Shown: piece after piece, positions 16,057 through 25,262 of the stretch
How the letters are laid out: each line of letters opens with the position of its first letter
How positions within the stretch are numbered: position 1 is the first letter of the stretch
Source of the DNA: a virus
DNA length: 46,584 nt
IMG/VR virus record: IMGVR_UViG_3300034018_000582
Location: 1-46,584 of that record
Reading direction: 5' to 3' (one strand)
Notes under the pieces: model-generated
Seen by the model: only the letters and a program-made list of their open reading frames with translations
Told to the model about the DNA's origin: nothing
The model's database searches: none
Made by a program: the position numbers and the translations under genes

Positions 16057-16458
16057 ATGCCATTTTTTAAAACTACAAAAAATATATTCCATCCATGGGA
16101 GGATGAATTATTCTCAGAAAATTGGATGGATGCGAATAAAGTTTATACCCCACCCACCAAAGTTTGGGACTATAAAAGAGAATTAAAGATAGAAGATGTA
16201 GATATTTGGGAAGTTTTATATGAGCAGGGTGGGGGTATTGGTGTATATGCATCATGGAGTCCATATTCAGAATTTTATTTAATTAGAACTGGATGGGAAG
16301 AAGAATGGGCAGGGAGAGGTCTAGAAACATATTATGGAGAGAATGCTCAAAGTAAAGTAATGAAAAGATGTAAGGAATTAAAAATACCACTACAAATTAA
16401 TAAATTATGGATAGAACCAGACGACATGTGGCTATATTCTAATATAGAGGTAAATTAA
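16057..16458 (+). CDS. conserved-looking protein, unknown function
   Basis: A 133-residue, Trp- and Tyr-rich protein (FHPWEDELFSENWMD, WEVLYEQGGGIGVYASWSP, WIEPDDMWLYSN). The N-terminus MPFFKTTKN resembles that of the preceding tip protein, hinting that the two are partners or share a capping role. There is no membrane segment or catalytic motif. AGGA lies seven bases before the ATG. Its last 20 bases overlap the end of the convergent glycosyltransferase gene on the minus strand, with no terminator between them. I recall similar proteins in aquatic phages but cannot name a function. Confidence 0.6.
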   Translation: MPFFKTTKNIFHPWEDELFSENWMDANKVYTPPTKVWDYKRELKIEDVDIWEVLYEQGGGIGVYASWSPYSEFYLIRTGWEEEWAGRGLETYYGENAQSKVMKRCKELKIPLQINKLWIEPDDMWLYSNIEVN

Positions 16459-17185
16459 CAGATCCCCAATCGTTCGGCGTCCAGAATCCAAACTCTTGAA
16501 TAGAATGATCATTGTATTTATAATTTCTACCTATTGATTGTGGATTAATTGGTAAAGGCTCTCTTAAAAACATTTCATGAGAAACCCTAGTACTGCTATC
16601 AACATAAATATCATATCCAAGTTTTCTTAATAAAGAACAGACATAGAAATCTTCTGACTCATAGATATTTGCACTATTTACACCAACTCTAAAAACATCA
16701 TATGTTCTATTACCATGATCATCAATATAGAATAAATTATTTTTTTCACAATACTCTGCTATGTCTAAACAAGCCTTTCTAGAGATAGAAAAAAGGCCAA
16801 ATCCAGCAAAATCTGTTTTATATAAAAAGTTTCCACAATCCTCATAAACTCCAACTACGGCACATCTTACTCCGTATGCAGAAACTGGATACTTTAGTGG
16901 TGTTGATAGGGCTATTGCATCGTGACCTAGTTCTATAATTTTTTCTATTCCTAATCTATCAGCAGCAACATCATCGTCCTGCCAAACCATATAGTCAAAG
17001 TCTGGTACATTATTTAAAATATCTGAAAATATAGCATTACGAGCGCGGGAGACTAAACTATCTCCTGGGTATATTTTATGCATAATTCTAAATTTAGAAG
17101 AAGATAAATAATCAATAATTGATTGCATATATTGAACAGTAACTGTATTCTTATATGAAGGTGTTGCAATTACTATATTTTTCAT
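16439..17185 (-). CDS. glycosyltransferase, GT-A-like with DDD motif
   Basis: A 248-residue soluble protein. It starts MKNIVIATPSYKN, the usual first strand of GT-A enzymes, and has WQDDDVAADR with three Asp at residues 70-72, the metal and nucleotide-sugar site. A later FAGFGLFSISRKACLDIAEY segment fits an acceptor-side loop. It should add a sugar to an unknown acceptor. The start overlaps the end of the upstream glycosyltransferase by four bases, so the two act as an operon. Both are inverted relative to the fibre genes around them, which suggests a separately acquired cassette. No substrate is evident; fibre proteins or host surface glycans are the plausible targets. Confidence 0.75.
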   Translation of the reverse strand: MKNIVIATPSYKNTVTVQYMQSIIDYLSSSKFRIMHKIYPGDSLVSRARNAIFSDILNNVPDFDYMVWQDDDVAADRLGIEKIIELGHDAIALSTPLKYPVSAYGVRCAVVGVYEDCGNFLYKTDFAGFGLFSISRKACLDIAEYCEKNNLFYIDDHGNRTYDVFRVGVNSANIYESEDFYVCSLLRKLGYDIYVDSSTRVSHEMFLREPLPINPQSIGRNYKYNDHSIQEFGFWTPNDWGSVNLPLY

Positions 17186-17808
17186 AACTCTCCTCTAACT
17201 CTATTTAATAATTCTATATTATTTTTACTTGGAATTCTAGTTTGAGGATGATATAAATGATAATTATTACCCTTTAGAAATGTAATAGGGCGGTATTTTT
17301 TTTCAAATCTTAAATTAAATTCTGTATCCTCAAGCCCCCACCCATCAAAACTTTCGCTCATGCCGCCTAGATCTTCCCATGTATCCTTTTTAATGATATA
17401 GATGCCACCAGAATTTCTAATATTTAACTGATATGGCAATAGATAGGTCTTGTCATAATCGTTTATTGTTAATGGATTGATTCCATTAATAAAATTTATG
17501 GTTGCCTTTTCATTCAAATAATGGATTGAGGTAAAGGGCTTTATGATCATTCCTTCATTCAATGAATTTAAGCCTTTGATAATTAAACTTAAATTAACAA
17601 TGTTATCTGAATCAATAATAACTAAGTTAGATTTTATAGACTTAGACACACCATTGTTTCTAGCCTGAGATCTATTAAATTTTTTTCTGTCAGACCGTCC
17701 GATTATTGGAATAGACAATGATGAATAGTATTTATAGCAATACTTAAAGTTTCTTAATTGATATGGACAACCACTATCCTGCCATGGAATTATTATATCG
17801 AAGTCCAT
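17182..17808 (-). CDS. glycosyltransferase with GT7-type C-terminal motif
   Basis: A 208-residue protein. The N-terminal FDIIIPWQDSG and VIIDSDNI (D66-S67-D68) are a GT-A fold DxD site. GGMSESFDGWGLEDTEF (148-164) closely follows the FxGWGxEDxE signature of galactosyltransferase-like family 7 C-terminal domains, where the Glu-Asp pair lies at the acceptor site. It is therefore likely a retaining-fold-independent hexosyl or N-acetylhexosaminyl transferase, specificity unknown. The first gene of a two-gene minus-strand operon. It has no Shine-Dalgarno sequence but a -10 box six bases upstream, so the message is predicted leaderless. Confidence 0.76.
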   Translation of the reverse strand: MDFDIIIPWQDSGCPYQLRNFKYCYKYYSSLSIPIIGRSDRKKFNRSQARNNGVSKSIKSNLVIIDSDNIVNLSLIIKGLNSLNEGMIIKPFTSIHYLNEKATINFINGINPLTINDYDKTYLLPYQLNIRNSGGIYIIKKDTWEDLGGMSESFDGWGLEDTEFNLRFEKKYRPITFLKGNNYHLYHPQTRIPSKNNIELLNRVRGEL

Positions 17809-19175: not shown

Positions 19176-20435
19176 GTGGCAAAAAAGGAAATCGGAGGAA
19201 GGTCTTCACAACAGAATGACTTCCTTGAACCAGCCGCACCTATTAATGTTGTTGCTACAGATGTAGGAACAAATAGAGCATTTAATAATGGTGCCGCTAG
19301 CGTGTCTTTTGAGTTGCCTGCTAATTCTCCTCCAGCAACTTCCTACACAGTTTACTTAAATGGCAATACTTCAATAAATGCTACTGGAACATCATCTCCA
19401 ATAGTTGTTAGTGGATTAACAACCCCAAATACAACAAACGCTGCACAGTTTTATGTTATAGCAACAAATGCTGCTGGGAATTCACCACAATCATCATTAT
19501 CTACAGCAATACACACTACTGGTGTTCCAGCAACAATGTCTGCACCTACAGTATCTTCAAGTACTACTGATCAAGACGCCGTATCCTGGACTGCACCAAA
19601 TACTGGCGGTAAAACAATAATTAGATATTACTGGGAAAGTTCCGATGGTAAGTCTGGTAATACAACAAATACCTCAGTTACTGTAACTCAAGAAGGCGGA
19701 ACTTCTCAAACATATAAGGTAAGAGCAGAAAATGCAAATGGACTAGGAATCTGGTCAGCAGATTCCTCAAGTGTTACTACAACTCCATTCTTTCCCCCAT
19801 TCTTTCCTTATTTCCCACCATTTTTCCCACCGTTCTTTCCCCCATTCTTCCCATATTTTCCTCCGTTCTTCCCATACTTTCCTCCGTTTTTCCCGTTCTT
19901 CCCACCATTCTTTCCGTTCTTCCCACCATTCTTCCCAGCGTTTGGTCCTGCATTTAAAACTGCTCCAACAAATATCATAGATCAAACTACTAATATCATT
20001 TACCTAACATCAGAGTATGGATACTTAACAGATAAGTATTTGGCAAATGAAGATGCTTTATCTGCACTAGGATTCGATGAATTAAATGGACTAGATAGTG
20101 CAATTGAACTAGATTCAGAATCTATAACAAATATAATAGAACTAGAGACTAATATTAAAAATATTGAAAGTCGCCTGGATCAAATTGACATTATTAAGAT
20201 TAATGATGAATCATACATAAAGCATCATAACCTTCTAGTTGAAAAAGACGGCAGGATCTTCTTTGAGAATGTATTAAATATAGATAGTTCATTTAAGTTA
20301 TTTAACTTTGACAATAAAGAATTTATTCAAATAGAGTCTTTAGAAAAAGTAGAAAATGTAGAAACTGAGGTATACTTCATTGAATGTGATATGCCAATAG
20401 TAATACAAAGTAGCGTTGGATTTATGACAAGATAG
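19176..20435 (+). CDS. fibronectin type III tail protein with a 57-residue Phe/Pro repeat
   Basis: A 419-residue protein read from GTG, with TAGGAG six bases upstream. Residues about 22-110 and 118-203 are two fibronectin-III-like domains (PINVVATDVG ... YVIATNAAGNSPQ; MSAPTVSSSTT ... YKVRAENANGLGIWS), common on siphovirus tails for weak surface binding. Residues 204-260 are almost only Phe and Pro, with a few Tyr, in units such as PPFFP and FFPYF. The C-terminal 150 residues are acidic and Ile/Leu-rich (LETNIKNIESRLDQIDII), probably a coiled coil with a small terminal domain. It sits directly before the prolyl-hydroxylase-like cluster. The repeat is too polar at its flanks and too proline-rich for a membrane helix, and its job is unknown. 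Confidence 0.78.
   Translation: MAKKEIGGRSSQQNDFLEPAAPINVVATDVGTNRAFNNGAASVSFELPANSPPATSYTVYLNGNTSINATGTSSPIVVSGLTTPNTTNAAQFYVIATNAAGNSPQSSLSTAIHTTGVPATMSAPTVSSSTTDQDAVSWTAPNTGGKTIIRYYWESSDGKSGNTTNTSVTVTQEGGTSQTYKVRAENANGLGIWSADSSSVTTTPFFPPFFPYFPPFFPPFFPPFFPYFPPFFPYFPPFFPFFPPFFPFFPPFFPAFGPAFKTAPTNIIDQTTNIIYLTSEYGYLTDKYLANEDALSALGFDELNGLDSAIELDSESITNIIELETNIKNIESRLDQIDIIKINDESYIKHHNLLVEKDGRIFFENVLNIDSSFKLFNFDNKEFIQIESLEKVENVETEVYFIECDMPIVIQSSVGFMTR
19785..19955 (+). repeat. in-frame Phe/Pro codon repeat
   Basis: TTC/TTT and CCA/CCC/CCG codons alternate in short units for 57 codons. Synonymous codons are mixed, so the peptide pattern is kept while the DNA varies. This argues for selection on the protein rather than simple recent slippage. 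Confidence 0.85.
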
Positions 20436-20448
20436 ATTGAGAGATATT

Positions 20449-21177
20449 GTGTCTGATTGGCTTAATAAAGATAGATCAGAAACACATTTAAATAGAATTA
20501 ATCCTAGAGCATGGAAAGATAATCTAATAGTAGAAAATCCGGCTCTAGGAATTAATATTTATAAAAGTGTTTTAGATAAAGGTTTATGCGATGAAGTAAT
20601 TAATGTATTGGAAGATAACATTGGTAATGAAAAATATCAATGGTCCCAGGCACACGTTACAGAATCTGATAACCCACTATTGAATGCTAGAGATTGTTTA
20701 GATTTTAAAATAGGACATAATAATCTAGGTCCAAGAAATTCTAACAATAAAGAATTATATGATATGCATCAGAAGGTTTTCGATTCACTTTACCCTGCAT
20801 CACAAGATTATGCAAGGTACTGGGGCGTAGGTATATCATATTTCGAAGTGTTCAACTTTGTTAAATATGAGGGTGTTAATAAACATTTTAATATTCATGC
20901 AGATCATGGTCCAGCATATGTATCTACAGTATCTATGGTTTTATATGTTAATGATAATTATGAGGGCGGAGAAATTTACTTCCCTAGATTTGACTTAGAG
21001 GTAAAGCCTGAGGCGGGGGATCTTGTGATATTCCCATCAACATACATTTACGAACATGCTTCAAAACCTATAGTTTCTGGTACTAAATATGCTATAGTGA
21101 TAATGACAGACTATAACAGTCGTGGAAATCTTAGATACTATCAGTATCGTGAAGAAGATAATAAAGTTAAATATTAG
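20449..21177 (+). CDS. 2-oxoglutarate/Fe(II) oxygenase, prolyl-4-hydroxylase-like (first of five)
   Basis: Predicted to hydroxylate an unknown substrate with Fe(II), 2-oxoglutarate and oxygen. The 242-residue chain has the double-stranded beta-helix pattern: iron ligands H150-x-D152 in FNIHADHG and H203 in YEHASKP, and the family hallmark YVNDNYEGGEIYFPRF. The 2-oxoglutarate-binding position is K213 (GTKYAIV), not the Arg seen in the later three cluster members. The start is uncertain: GTG 20449 has GAGAG five bases upstream, while an in-frame TTG at 20437 has nothing. It follows the Phe/Pro tail gene by 13 bases. Its closest relative in the window is the next gene. Confidence 0.82.
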   Translation: MSDWLNKDRSETHLNRINPRAWKDNLIVENPALGINIYKSVLDKGLCDEVINVLEDNIGNEKYQWSQAHVTESDNPLLNARDCLDFKIGHNNLGPRNSNNKELYDMHQKVFDSLYPASQDYARYWGVGISYFEVFNFVKYEGVNKHFNIHADHGPAYVSTVSMVLYVNDNYEGGEIYFPRFDLEVKPEAGDLVIFPSTYIYEHASKPIVSGTKYAIVIMTDYNSRGNLRYYQYREEDNKVKY

Positions 21178-21189
21178 ATTGGTTTTTTT

Positions 21190-21894
21190 ATGATTTCTGA
21201 AGAGCAGAAAACAATAAATCAAAAAATTGAAGAGTTTTATAAGATAGATAATCAAACATGGTCATCATATGACGACCTTGGGAGTGGCATATTTGTTTAT
21301 CATGACGCTATGCCGCTTGACTGTATCTCTAGACTAGAGAATGTTTTAGAAAATGATAGGAATCAGTATTCTTATTCTGAAGCAATGGTCGGATATTCTA
21401 TGAAAATACCAGAATACAGAGACTGTCAGGATTTTAGATTTAAAAAGTCTGATATAGAAGGAGACAGGAGTTCTGCTAGCCTTGAGTTACAGGATGTTTG
21501 GCAAAGCATCTATGATAGTGCATCTCAGGCAGTTAAGCACTATGCATCCCATTTTAAAATTGGAGAACTTAGGTACTGGGAGGCTATGAACTTTGTCAGG
21601 TATGGTCCAGGACAACATTTTCAGGAACACCACGATCATGGATATTCATACAATTGTGTAGTCTCATTGGTGGGGTATCCTAATGATGATTACGAAGGTG
21701 GAGAATTATATTTTAGATTACAAAATCTTAATATAAAGCCTAAGGCTGGAGACTTGTTTATCTTTCCATCAAACTATATGTATCCTCATAGAGCCATGCC
21801 AGTAGTTTCTGGAATAAAGTACTCAGTAGTTACAATGCTTGATTACTCCGATAAGTTTCATAGACCAGAATTTTATTACGAAACGGGAACCTGA
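21190..21894 (+). CDS. 2-oxoglutarate/Fe(II) oxygenase, prolyl-4-hydroxylase-like (second of five)
   Basis: A 234-residue protein with iron ligands H147-x-D149 (QEHHDHG) and H200 (YPHRAMP), the DDYEGGELYF core and K210 as the likely 2-oxoglutarate anchor. It resembles the preceding gene product throughout (NFVKYEG versus NFVRYGPG; AGDLVIFPS versus AGDLFIFPS), so the two look like a tandem duplication that diverged, perhaps to use different sites or substrates. A run of seven T precedes the ATG and no ribosome-binding site is visible. The stop overlaps the next ATG (TGATG). Confidence 0.83.
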   Translation: MISEEQKTINQKIEEFYKIDNQTWSSYDDLGSGIFVYHDAMPLDCISRLENVLENDRNQYSYSEAMVGYSMKIPEYRDCQDFRFKKSDIEGDRSSASLELQDVWQSIYDSASQAVKHYASHFKIGELRYWEAMNFVRYGPGQHFQEHHDHGYSYNCVVSLVGYPNDDYEGGELYFRLQNLNIKPKAGDLFIFPSNYMYPHRAMPVVSGIKYSVVTMLDYSDKFHRPEFYYETGT

Positions 21895-22604
21895 TGCCCC
21901 TTGTTGCATATAAAGATATGCATACTCCATCAATCATAGAGCAAATGCCTATGCATAGAGACTGGATGGACGAGACATTTGATCGACATGCATATCAATG
22001 TTTTCCAGTATCAATGGCAAACAGACTTGGATGGTCTATATCTTTTAAAGAAGATATAACATTTATTTGGGATGGTATCAATTCTTCACAAGATGGTCAT
22101 GTTAATATAATAACTGGCGGAGATTATGTTAGCACTAGAAGAGCAAATAGAACTCTTAGTTTCGACACAGGAATTATATTCTCTCCAGAGGAGAACGTAA
22201 GCCTACTCACAATGCCTCCGCCAAATATATTTATAGATGGCATTCAATGCATGACAACAATTATTAGCACGACAGCATTGATAGGAGCATTGCCAGTAGC
22301 AATAATGATAACTAGGCCAAATATTGAAATAACTATTCCAGCAAAAACTCCTATAGCATCAGTATTTCCAATATCACTAACAGATATAAATAATACTGAA
22401 TTAATTGTAAAGAGTGGATATCCAGATTTTATGCAACAAGCCGAATGGAATAAAAAAATTCAAGATCGCGGCGCTGCCTCTCAGGAAAAAAATTCTAAAG
22501 GAGAGTGGACTCATTTTTACAGAGATGCTGTAGACCATAATGGAAACAAAATGGGTGATCATGAAGTTAAGAAAATTCTTATGAGAGTGACTTATGAAAA
22601 TTAA
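21894..22604 (+). CDS. DUF6065-family protein
   Basis: A 236-residue protein. MPMHRDWMDETFDRHAYQCFPVSMANRLGW follows the conserved pattern of the DUF6065 family (RxWMDxTxxxxAYRCLPLxxANxxGW), and a later IEITIPAKTPIASVFPI fits its second conserved region. The family has no established function that I know of. It is found in phages and bacteria, and here it lies between oxygenase genes with overlaps at both ends, implying joint expression and perhaps work on the same substrate. The last ten bases overlap the next gene. Confidence 0.72.
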   Translation: MPLVAYKDMHTPSIIEQMPMHRDWMDETFDRHAYQCFPVSMANRLGWSISFKEDITFIWDGINSSQDGHVNIITGGDYVSTRRANRTLSFDTGIIFSPEENVSLLTMPPPNIFIDGIQCMTTIISTTALIGALPVAIMITRPNIEITIPAKTPIASVFPISLTDINNTELIVKSGYPDFMQQAEWNKKIQDRGAASQEKNSKGEWTHFYRDAVDHNGNKMGDHEVKKILMRVTYEN

Positions 22605-23313
22605 GTTTTTATCTAATAGGCCATGGTCTAGTGAAAATAAAAATAGTTTCCCAGAGCCATCTTCTAAAAATATTCCAGACTGGTATGTTAAAGAAGATAG
22701 ATACGCAAAACAGCCAAATGGGGAGTATTACACAGGACCAGATGGAGGAAAGATAGTTACATGGAAGGGATGCCCTGCCATATATGACATATTAATAACT
22801 GGATATATGCTAAAGACTCCATGTGATATAGAATTTATAAACACTCCAACTGGACAAATTCATAGAATTTATGACATTAGATACCAAGATTTTATTCAGC
22901 CAAGGCTGGAAATGTCTGGATTCGATGAACCAGACGGGTACTCCAAGAGCCACTTTGCTTGGTATCCAGATTGGGCACCAGAAGTCCCTAGTGGGTATAG
23001 TGTTCTTTATTCACAGCCGTTCAATAGATTCGACTTGCCCTTCTTAAATACAACTGGTATTGTTGATAATGATGAAGTTAGTGTTCCAGGAACAGTACCT
23101 TTCTTCATTAAAGAAGGATGGGAAGGGGTGGTTCCTGCAGGAACCCCATATATTCAACTTCTTCCATTCAAAAGAGATGATTGGGAGTCTGAACACGAAC
23201 TTTTAGATGAAAAGCAGATAGTAAGAAGAAACATTAAAAACAGCAAAAAATATAGAGTACCAAACGGTGGTGTATATTTAAATGAAGTATGGCATAGAAG
23301 GAAGTATCAGTAA
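22594..23313 (+). CDS. phage protein of unknown function, related in layout to DUF6065
   Basis: A 239-residue protein. NIPDWYVKEDRYAKQPNG ... WKGCPAIYDILITGYMLKTPCDIEF, then YSQPFNRFDLPFLNTTGIVDND and VPFFIKEGWEGVVPAGTPYIQLLPFKRDDW are segments I recall from marine phage proteins of unknown role. The PAGTPYIQLLPF motif parallels PAKTPIASVFPI of the preceding gene, so the two may share a fold. It overlaps the preceding gene by 11 bases and the next by one (TAATG), locking it into the cluster. No catalytic residues can be assigned. Confidence 0.65.
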   Translation: MKIKFLSNRPWSSENKNSFPEPSSKNIPDWYVKEDRYAKQPNGEYYTGPDGGKIVTWKGCPAIYDILITGYMLKTPCDIEFINTPTGQIHRIYDIRYQDFIQPRLEMSGFDEPDGYSKSHFAWYPDWAPEVPSGYSVLYSQPFNRFDLPFLNTTGIVDNDEVSVPGTVPFFIKEGWEGVVPAGTPYIQLLPFKRDDWESEHELLDEKQIVRRNIKNSKKYRVPNGGVYLNEVWHRRKYQ

Positions 23314-23969
23314 TGTTTGAAGGAAATCCAGTATCAATAACCCCATCAGGCTTCTTTGGCAATGGAAAAGAAAATATAGTTGAACTAGAAAACTTTATGA
23401 CAAATGAAGAAGTAGAATTTCTTAATAATTTCATTAGATCTAACACTATATGGGACATAACAGAAACACATTATAATGATGAGGGTACTGTTATTTATGA
23501 TGCAGATTACTGGAAAGATAGGGTAATTACTAAGCCAAATATAGAAAAGGCTAATCCTAAAGTATCAATTATTATTAACAACATGGTTGCTAGACTTAAG
23601 CCTATCGTAGATGATTTTTTTAAGGTGGACGCAATGCCTACGAATCCTGCCATGGTTAAGTGGCTACCAGGACAACTTCAAATGCCTCATGCAGATAAGG
23701 AGTTGCACGTTGGAGAAGACGCAGGGAAGCCAAACGACTTCCCTTGGTATGACCTTGCCAGCCTATTTTATATAAATGATGACTATGAGGGTGGGGAATT
23801 GTATTTCCCACATCAAGATATTCAATTTAAACCAAAGGTAGGTGCTGCATACTTCTTCCCTGGAGATATGAATTATATTCACGGAGTTACTGAAGTTAAA
23901 TCAGGTATTAGATACACCGTCCCCTTCTTTTGGACAATTCTAGAGCATACTGGAGATTCTAGGCCATGA
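23313..23969 (+). CDS. 2-oxoglutarate/Fe(II) oxygenase, prolyl-4-hydroxylase-like (third of five)
   Basis: A 218-residue enzyme with all expected residues: H126-x-D128 (MPHADKE), H190 (YIHGVTEV) and R200 (SGIRYTVPFFW), which binds 2-oxoglutarate. The core DDYEGGELYFPHQDIQFKPK is highly typical of the viral P4H-like family. It carries Arg where the first two members have Lys, and its C-terminus (TVPFFW) matches the fourth and fifth members more closely, so it belongs to a second subgroup. The start overlaps the previous stop and its own stop overlaps the next ATG. Confidence 0.86.
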   Translation: MFEGNPVSITPSGFFGNGKENIVELENFMTNEEVEFLNNFIRSNTIWDITETHYNDEGTVIYDADYWKDRVITKPNIEKANPKVSIIINNMVARLKPIVDDFFKVDAMPTNPAMVKWLPGQLQMPHADKELHVGEDAGKPNDFPWYDLASLFYINDDYEGGELYFPHQDIQFKPKVGAAYFFPGDMNYIHGVTEVKSGIRYTVPFFWTILEHTGDSRP

Positions 23970-24694
23970 TAATAGATTCAATAAACACAGAAGATTTTGT
24001 TATCTATAAAGATGATGAAAATAAATTAGGTGAGTTGGGTATTACTCAAAACAGAATAATTGAGATACCAGATTTTGTTGATGAGAATACTGCAAAGAGT
24101 ATGATCGAATACTTTGAATATAAGGCATCAATGTGGGGACCAATTGCATTTTATGGATCATCTGGGATGGGCCTTATGCATAATGATCCAGAACTTTCGA
24201 ACTTTGGATTACCAGATGACTTCTTTTCAAAAATACAATCTAAGTTTCAGGAATCAGTAGAATTAATATTCGGTAGACCTGTAAAGGCTAATACATCACA
24301 TGCACAAAAATGGGATGTTGGAGGATTTGCCGCAGCACATTCAGACAACTCCGACTTTGAGGGCAAGCCTAATTCTTTTCAAATAAATAAATATGTTGGA
24401 ATTTTATATTTGAATGGAAATTATGGTGGGGGAGAACTTTATTTTCCAGAGCATGAGATTGAAATAAAGCCTAAGTCGTTATCATTTATTTCTTTCCCTG
24501 GCGGGGTAGAGAATATACATGGAGTTAGAGAAATAACAGAGGGAACTAGATATACAATGGTTTCATTCTGGGATTTTGCTGAATCTGAATATTCTGATGA
24601 GTTGAAGTCTGAATGGGAGCAAGAATTGCTTAGGGTGCGAGCAGAGCAAGAAGCCCAAAGAGAAGAGTGGTCAAAGGGTAATAAGTATGCGTAG
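23966..24694 (+). CDS. 2-oxoglutarate/Fe(II) oxygenase, prolyl-4-hydroxylase-like (fourth of five)
   Basis: A 242-residue enzyme with H125-x-D127 (AAHSDNSD), H185 (NIHGVREI) and R195 (GTRYTMVSFWDF). The core is NGNYGGGELYFPEHEIEIKPK. It has an N-terminal helical domain of about 100 residues and an extra charged helical tail after 205 (SEWEQELLRVRAEQEAQREEW) not found in the others, which could be a protein-protein contact. ATGA overlap with the gene before; its end overlaps the next gene by eight bases. Confidence 0.86.
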   Translation: MIIDSINTEDFVIYKDDENKLGELGITQNRIIEIPDFVDENTAKSMIEYFEYKASMWGPIAFYGSSGMGLMHNDPELSNFGLPDDFFSKIQSKFQESVELIFGRPVKANTSHAQKWDVGGFAAAHSDNSDFEGKPNSFQINKYVGILYLNGNYGGGELYFPEHEIEIKPKSLSFISFPGGVENIHGVREITEGTRYTMVSFWDFAESEYSDELKSEWEQELLRVRAEQEAQREEWSKGNKYA

Positions 24695-25262
24695 TCTAAT
24701 AAATAAGCCAGAAATATATAATGACAGTATTTATTACTACAAGGGCATACTGCAAAGACCTGAATACATAGTTAAATTAATAGAACAAAATAATTCAAAT
24801 TCAGATCTTATTAGTGACTGGGTTCCATGGCAATCCTCAGACGGAGACTACACATTTGGAAGAACAAAAAGAATAAATTTTGAACACTACCCAAATTCTT
24901 CCGATGAGTCTAAGTTCATATACGGATCTATTTTGTCCGCAATTAGATTGGCTGGTGTTTTCTATGCTAGAAATAAAAATATTAATTTAGGTAAACAGTC
25001 TCCAATTTCAATATCTAAATATGACGAGGGAAAGTTTATGGGTCCTCATACTGATGAAAAAACTGGAGCGCATATATCTGGAGTTTTATATTTAAATGAT
25101 AATTACTCTGGAGGAGAACTAGAATTTCCTAATCAAGAATTTTCAATAAAGCCTGAGGCTGGAAGCATGATTGTTTTTCCATCCATAGGTGAATACATTC
25201 ATGATCCAAAGCCTGCCTACGGCGGGGAGAGATACATTTGCCCCGTATTCTGGTATAATTAA
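24687..25262 (+). CDS. 2-oxoglutarate/Fe(II) oxygenase, prolyl-4-hydroxylase-like (fifth of five)
   Basis: The shortest member (191 residues), close to a minimal catalytic domain. Iron ligands are H121-x-D123 (GPHTDEK) and H172 (YIHDPKPA); R182 (GERYICPVFW) binds 2-oxoglutarate. The core LNDNYSGGELEFPNQEFSIKPEAG is typical. The last codons contain a TGGTATAAT extended -10 promoter that serves the following gene, so the cluster ends here in transcription terms, although no terminator is visible. Confidence 0.86.
   Translation: MRSLINKPEIYNDSIYYYKGILQRPEYIVKLIEQNNSNSDLISDWVPWQSSDGDYTFGRTKRINFEHYPNSSDESKFIYGSILSAIRLAGVFYARNKNINLGKQSPISISKYDEGKFMGPHTDEKTGAHISGVLYLNDNYSGGELEFPNQEFSIKPEAGSMIVFPSIGEYIHDPKPAYGGERYICPVFWYN
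25251..25259 (+). promoter_or_regulatory. extended -10 promoter inside the last oxygenase codons
   Basis: TGGTATAAT at the very end of the fifth oxygenase gene. Initiation near 25266 would leave a leader of about 55 bases before ATG 25320, containing the small palindrome CCTATAAATAGG and no good ribosome-binding site. Confidence 0.45.

Follow-up and report, generated by a model that had tools for sequence, protein, structure and literature searches.

An ordered array of putative prolyl hydroxylase genes with two DUF6065-type partners beside a proline/phenylalanine-repeat gene in a tailed-phage record

Relation to described hydroxylase systems

Few unexplained metabolic genes are as common in aquatic phages as those for oxygenases that resemble prolyl 4-hydroxylase (P4H) and depend on 2-oxoglutarate and Fe(II) (2OG-Fe(II)), and PMC9301287 describes their viral use as one that "remains cryptic"; according to PMC12774648, phage structures match EGLN3 more often than any other human protein. 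We describe here a block of seven genes, encoding five such oxygenases (O1 through O5) and two proteins of the DUF6065 type (D1 and D2), in the IMG/VR virus record IMGVR_UViG_3300034018_000582, whose 46,584 nucleotides were analysed as one stretch (the window), and we nominate the product of the adjacent Pro/Phe-repeat gene as a concrete candidate substrate for these long-puzzling genes.

The precedent is Chlorella virus PBCV-1, whose virus-encoded P4H-type 2OG oxygenase was examined by Eriksson et al. (1999, cited in PMC7019647 and PMC9301287) along with substrate peptides for viral 4-hydroxyproline. It differs from the present case in being a eukaryotic virus with one enzyme, and it has no DUF6065 partners, array or Phe/Pro tract. 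The peptide substrates in that study were reportedly Pro-rich repeats of viral origin. Cyanophage 2OG-Fe(II) oxygenases (phrog_61 and relatives; Phold survey, PMC12774648) share the superfamily and active site of O1 through O5, but usually occur as one to three scattered genes with no known substrate and no ordered array beside a repeat-protein gene. Collagen P4H, LH3 and bacterial P4H (PDB 3itq, 5hv0, 6fxk) are detectable sequence relatives of O2 that act on repetitive Pro-rich proteins, although they are single enzymes with other substrate repeats and without dUTPase-fold partners; the repeat found here, PPFFPxF, has no Gly and so does not offer a collagen-type Gly-X-Y substrate. In the plant extensin-type hydroxyproline-rich glycoproteins (PMC4132260, PMC8012813), Pro-rich structural repeats are likewise modified by a number of P4H paralogues, but in a eukaryotic secretory pathway with arabinosylation, whereas the phage core module contains no glycosyltransferase. 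The locus is conserved and best read as a variant of a known theme, viral prolyl hydroxylation, in which the multi-enzyme layout and two unexplained partners with a predicted dUTPase fold are unusual.

Association of the module with Pro/Phe-repeat genes

The block delineated in the initial annotation is real: five intact oxygenase genes and two DUF6065-type genes lie tightly packed on the + strand, and neighbouring open reading frames (ORFs) overlap by 1–11 bp; only O1 and O2 are separated, by 12 bp. What that annotation overlooked is the Pro/Phe-repeat gene, which ends immediately upstream of O1 (Table 1). The co-occurrence of DUF6065 and P4H-like genes that it raised is borne out among other phages, where an ordered module recurs with a Pro/Phe-repeat gene upstream. 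The module is found in more than 100 viral contigs, which, with the substitution rates given below, speaks against a chance arrangement; D2 and D1, used separately as queries, gave 116 new loci, partly redundant. The main gene order is Pro/Phe-repeat gene, O1, O2, D1, D2, O3 and then zero to eight further oxygenases, and a second clade has the order repeat gene, O1, D2, O2, D1, O3; O1, O2 and O3 are always present, while O4, O5 and others are variable. When near-duplicates and loci without readable upstream DNA are removed, the gene upstream of O1 contains a Pro/Phe tract in all 36 dereplicated D1 loci, compared with 4 of 512 other ORFs. The FPPFFP codon pattern is present in 46 of the 48 whole D1/D2 contigs, and the other two (L108 and L117) carry FFPSFPFF / PFFPFFPSF variants.

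The association was also recovered from the other side, by scanning all viral contigs for FFPPFFPPFFP codons alone, blind to oxygenases, which gave 120 stretches. A same-strand oxygenase lies within 4 kb in 61 of the 73 repeat ORFs that have at least 3 kb of downstream sequence. Counting either side, 68 of 88 repeat loci have an oxygenase within 4 kb, compared with 6 of 90 collagen-like loci drawn from the same contig collection by a collagen-type Gly-Pro pattern (odds ratio 48; Fisher p 1e-23, a value that is overstated since the contigs are partly redundant and the habitats not matched). Among 23 repeat contigs whose fetched stretch was short or had no oxygenase, 17 have one elsewhere; the contigs are fragments. 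A concrete substrate is thus nominated from both search directions, and the question becomes directly testable. Collagen-like repeats were considered as the usual oxygenase partner and rejected on the 6/90 count.

Relatives of the window's capsid protein give a similar picture: among 41 contigs the repeat is present in 7 of the 15 that are oxygenase-positive (O5-type) and in none of the 26 that are oxygenase-negative (hypergeometric ~3e-4). Oxygenase-positive members that lack FPPFFP often have other Pro repeats upstream, namely (FFSPPA/FFGPPS)n in G027, (TPFGF)n in G021 and (VTPPA)n in G025; the exception, G003, has a Cys-rich upstream protein with no Pro repeats (L324), and some of the other contigs begin inside the array. 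Pro is thus what the variant repeats share; Phe, absent from (VTPPA)n, is not.

Table 1. Positions of the Pro/Phe-repeat gene, the oxygenase/DUF6065 block and related side clusters (window numbering unless a locus is named)
Feature	Position	Strand	Basis
Pro/Phe-repeat protein gene, 419 amino acids; proposed substrate	19176..20435	+	homologue in this position at 36/36 non-redundant loci
Repeat tract PFFPPFFPYFPPFFPPFFPPFFPYF..., 50 amino acids, only P/F/Y	19785..19934	+	synonymous codons vary
O1, 2OG-Fe(II) oxygenase, Lys anchor	20449 (GTG; alternative TTG 20437)..21177	+	ORF, Pfam, alignment, tree
O2, 2OG-Fe(II) oxygenase, Lys anchor	21190..21894	+	ORF, Pfam, solved relatives, alignment, tree
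D1, DUF6065 protein, predicted dUTPase-like fold	21894..22604	+	Pfam, consensus, model
D2, phrog_7084, diverged DUF6065 relative, predicted dUTPase-like fold	22594..23313	+	profile, consensus, model
O3, 2OG-Fe(II) oxygenase, Arg anchor, in conserved core	23313..23969	+	ORF, Pfam, alignment, tree
O4, 2OG-Fe(II) oxygenase, Arg anchor	23966..24694	+	ORF, Pfam, alignment, tree
O5, 2OG-Fe(II) oxygenase, Arg anchor, variable array tail	24687..25262	+	ORF, Pfam, alignment, tree
Second mini-cluster loci	L324:4287-9817, L447:3206-8223, L448:1454-6326, L449:7970-11867, L450:11694-15641		

The repeat protein

The repeat protein of the window consists of two fn3-like domains, a stretch of some 50 residues made up entirely of (PPFFPYF)n and a C-terminal domain (19945-20435) that looks like a degenerate Hint domain. 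Synonymous codons vary along the tract (Pro 12 CCA, 5 CCG, 3 CCT and 2 CCC; Phe 17 TTC and 8 TTT), and selection therefore acts on the peptide; the ratio of nonsynonymous to synonymous substitution rates (dN/dS) of the gene relative to L088 is 0.15. Among relatives, position x of the repeat unit can be F, Y, H, R, S or A while Pro is kept. The repeat is borne on differing N-terminal domains, and sometimes a second copy gene lies behind the array; second genes of this kind, on immunoglobulin (Ig)-like or PASTA N-terminal domains, are seen at L017:18757-19647, L027:8400-9365 and L019:13314-13832.

An apparently intact Hint/intein-like domain, as judged by a simple signature (C..DT ... THPIFV ... 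HNK), directly follows the Pro/Phe tract in 30 of the 153 repeat proteins that are complete and distinct (for example in L015, L019, L023 and L025), and weak Pfam Hint/Intein matches were obtained on relatives. Because this domain adjoins the repeat, self-processing is suggested as a further step in some of these phages. The repeat protein has no match among 50,697 annotated phage records, a search in which repeats may have been masked by the low-complexity filter, and a literature search for FFPPFF yielded nothing beyond Amanita cyclic peptides and a single paper on an unrelated matter.

The oxygenases

O1 through O5 all score above the Pfam 2OG-FeII_Oxy_3 (PF13640) cut-off (30.5–54 bits compared with 27). 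In their alignment the HxD motif, the distal H, GGE and F are invariant, which confirms the intact HxD...H triad reported in the initial annotation, as well as its division of the 2OG anchor into Lys (O1 and O2) and Arg (O3, O4 and O5); the triad is kept in 240 of 240 full-length non-redundant oxygenases. The GTG codon at which we start O1 gives the N-terminus MSDWLNKDRSET, where homologues start M..WL.K.R.ET, and is probably the true start. The dN/dS values of the module genes relative to L088 are 0.10–0.22 where computable, dS being saturated for O2.

Phylogenetic analysis places O1 (31 members) and O2 (31 members) in sister clades, both of the Lys type, and O3 (28) and O4 (39) in Arg-type clades; local support is at least 0.99 (rounded) for O1 and O2 taken together, for O3, for O4 and for O1 by itself. 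The four are thus separate orthologous clades that have been maintained across phages, and this long upkeep of distinct orthologues argues for distinct jobs; a division of labour among the oxygenases fits the tree. The closest solved relatives of O2 are a bacterial prolyl 4-hydroxylase and then LH3, the sole solved relative of O5 is a PKHD-type hydroxylase, and O3 has a sub-threshold Tet_JBP match (E 0.07). The genomic association with Pro repeats and the sequence kinship to bacterial P4H make O1 through O5 candidate peptidyl-proline hydroxylases. Oxygenase number and repeat length are weakly correlated (rho 0.38, n=46, kinship not corrected for), and we do not use this as evidence.

The DUF6065-type proteins

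The description of both remaining proteins as DUF6065-type holds fully for D1, which matches PF19541 (E 1e-30, 107.5 bits compared with a cut-off of 26.6), and for D2 in the sense of distant relationship: D2 belongs to phrog_7084 (E 2e-33) and does not itself match PF19541; of 46 D2 relatives, 6 do (best E 7e-9). Because those six still match DUF6065, D1 and D2 are probably distant paralogues. AlphaFold models of the two (predicted local distance difference test, pLDDT, 86 for D1 and 90 for D2) have dUTPases and dCTP deaminases as their best Foldseek matches in the PDB, D2 also in the BFVD viral library, and both proteins are therefore predicted to have a dUTPase fold; the similarity is weak (E ~1e-3, template modelling (TM) score 0.4–0.6 on target; PDB 3ecy, 2yzj, 6ky8). 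Profile search found no Pfam dUTPase match in D1 or in D2 and its 45 relatives, and, again in contrast to the dUTPases, D1 and D2 are embedded in a hydroxylase block. In the D2 consensus, read by eye, a G-x-x-D-x-D segment resembles dUTPase motif 3 and a PAGTP..Q segment motif 4; in the D1 consensus Ser/Thr replace the acidic residues of the former.

We note that lone D2 relatives adjoin ribonucleotide reductase (RNR) genes in HF1/HF2-type haloviruses and cyanophage S-RIM4 (L001:5857-6693, L002:5857-6741, L451:9001-9795), where they are possibly uncharacterised nucleotide enzymes, the family having a predicted dUTPase-like fold. Since these relatives stand alone beside RNR genes, the ancestor of D2 may have been a nucleotide enzyme that was recruited later. 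A literature search found no paper on DUF6065, and D1 has no relative among the 50,697 phage records at the sensitivity used.

Proposed pathway and alternatives

We consider it likely, on balance, that the block encodes a phage protein-modification pathway in which O1 through O5 hydroxylate prolines of the repeat protein with a division of labour and D1 and D2 would be binding or assembly partners. The repeat protein would have a structural role, probably as a tail-fibre or adhesin-type protein, and its (PPFFPxF)n tract would be the substrate, with prolines (less likely phenylalanines) hydroxylated during fibre synthesis. The paralogues could recognise different contexts or positions; FPP, PPF and FPF contexts occur together in the repeat, and because they coexist several paralogues are expected. 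An unmodified Phe/Pro tract of 50–145 residues should be extremely hydrophobic, and 4-hydroxyproline, which adds hydroxyls and favours an extended rod, would give a more soluble and stiffened hydroxyproline-rich rod, in some relatives possibly a sugar carrier. D1 and D2 may be non-nucleotide proteins on a dUTPase-like fold that bind or present the repeat or aid its assembly. The fullest form of the scheme we put forward tentatively, at somewhat less than an even chance: an ordered set of 5–12 paralogous 2OG oxygenases with distinct site specificities and a repurposed dUTPase-fold DUF6065 pair would make a hydroxyproline-rich, extensin/collagen-like phage fibre by a multi-enzyme pathway not previously described. 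If the repeat is indeed the substrate, DUF6065 would gain a first functional context, and enzymes that hydroxylate Phe/Pro rods would form an additional family, of possible value for biocatalysis or materials. The interpretation in the initial annotation is partly supported: its leading idea, hydroxylation of virion proteins at several sites, gains support and focus from the repeat gene linked in both search directions, and the separate O1 through O4 clades fit it.

Several observations weigh against this pathway. According to PMC7019647 (its ref. 162), purified PBCV-1 particles yielded no hydroxyproline on amino acid analysis in spite of the P4H of that virus, and a viral P4H gene therefore does not have to mean modified virions. 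Six repeat contigs, two of them 37–38 kb long, are without any oxygenase; some oxygenase-D2 clusters are paired with a Cys/Asn-rich tail protein and not with a Pro repeat (L324, L447-L450); the fold of D1 and D2 resembles that of nucleotide enzymes; and the genomic linkage could stem from joint inheritance. The second arrangement indicates that D2-oxygenase pairs can serve other repeat proteins. The true substrate might instead be a different virion protein (a Gly-rich or Ig-like tail protein), with the Pro/Phe repeat only a linked fibre module. Further structural genes do lie nearby, and the mini-cluster of D2, glycosyltransferase, D2 and oxygenase has its Cys/Asn-rich upstream protein; the repeat tract alone, however, recurs on otherwise differing neighbour proteins on both sides of the array, and we regard such a substrate as improbable. 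It is also unlikely that Phe (or Tyr/His at the variable positions) rather than Pro is the residue modified by the oxygenases, for example by β-hydroxylation, to give a hydroxylated or cross-linkable Phe-rich rod. Phe is as frequent as Pro in the repeat (49.7% compared with 46.1%), its FF pairs are conserved and enzymes of the 2OG-Fe(II) fold are able to hydroxylate a wide range of residues, but a Phe-free repeat, (VTPPA)n, lies beside oxygenases, the variable position accepts F, Y, H, R, S or A while Pro is kept, and O2 has prolyl and lysyl hydroxylases as its closest solved relatives.

An auxiliary metabolic function, with host proteins or small metabolites as targets and the fibre gene merely adjacent, would agree with the cyanophages, whose P4H-like genes are mostly away from fibre genes and near uvsX, RNR or ferrochelatase-type genes. 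In the present clade the repeat-gene link is position-specific and recovered from either search side, and 5–12 paralogues in conserved order are hard to reconcile with one metabolite, so we give this little credence. Modification of DNA or nucleotides, the main alternative in the initial annotation, would make D1 and D2 nucleotide-binding proteins, with hydroxylation of a base by the oxygenases in the manner of TET/JBP enzymes. The predicted fold of D1 and D2 keeps the idea alive, D2 relatives adjoin RNR genes as noted above, and the window also encodes RNR and ThyX. It draws no support from the association, which links the block specifically to Pro/Phe-repeat genes inside a structural block; D1 and D2 match no Pfam dUTPase family and the sole Tet_JBP match, that of O3, is sub-threshold, and we judge this explanation very improbable.

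Genome context and side clusters

The window is a 46.6-kb tailed-phage record with RNR, ThyX, endolysin, portal, capsid and tape-measure genes. The earlier placement of the block between tail genes is roughly right, in that structural/receptor-type genes lie upstream and a gene for a 1098-amino-acid CBM_4_9 protein, followed by portal/head genes, downstream. By capsid the nearest isolates are 130-kb Streptomyces siphophages (66% identity), which makes an actinobacterial host plausible; no Streptomyces siphophage is among the organisms matched in the O1 and O2 searches. The genome-contig scan found the same module on one contig binned with a Chitinophagaceae metagenome-assembled genome; this contig is probably phage and was not used to assign a host. 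A promoter/terminator scan gave no signal above chance.

The second mini-cluster (Table 1) consists of a Cys/Asn/Pro-rich tail protein, D2, sometimes a PF11397 N-acetylglucosamine (GlcNAc) transferase, D2 and one oxygenase, and PF11397 is present in L324, L447 and L448. The family includes the Skp1 hydroxyproline GlcNAc transferase. As a regular partner of the module PF11397 was rejected, since it is not enriched: it is present on 6 of 48 module contigs and, among the capsid relatives, on 2 of the 15 contigs with an oxygenase and 2 of the 26 without one. Dense CxxC/PGNCN-like repeats are seen in tail proteins encoded at L324:8786-9817 and L132:9521-10696, and L132 has a PPFF tract within the Cys-rich protein. 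Shortly upstream of the module in the window, two minus-strand genes (16439-17808), one of them galactosyltransferase-like (PF02709), lie within the plus-strand structural block.

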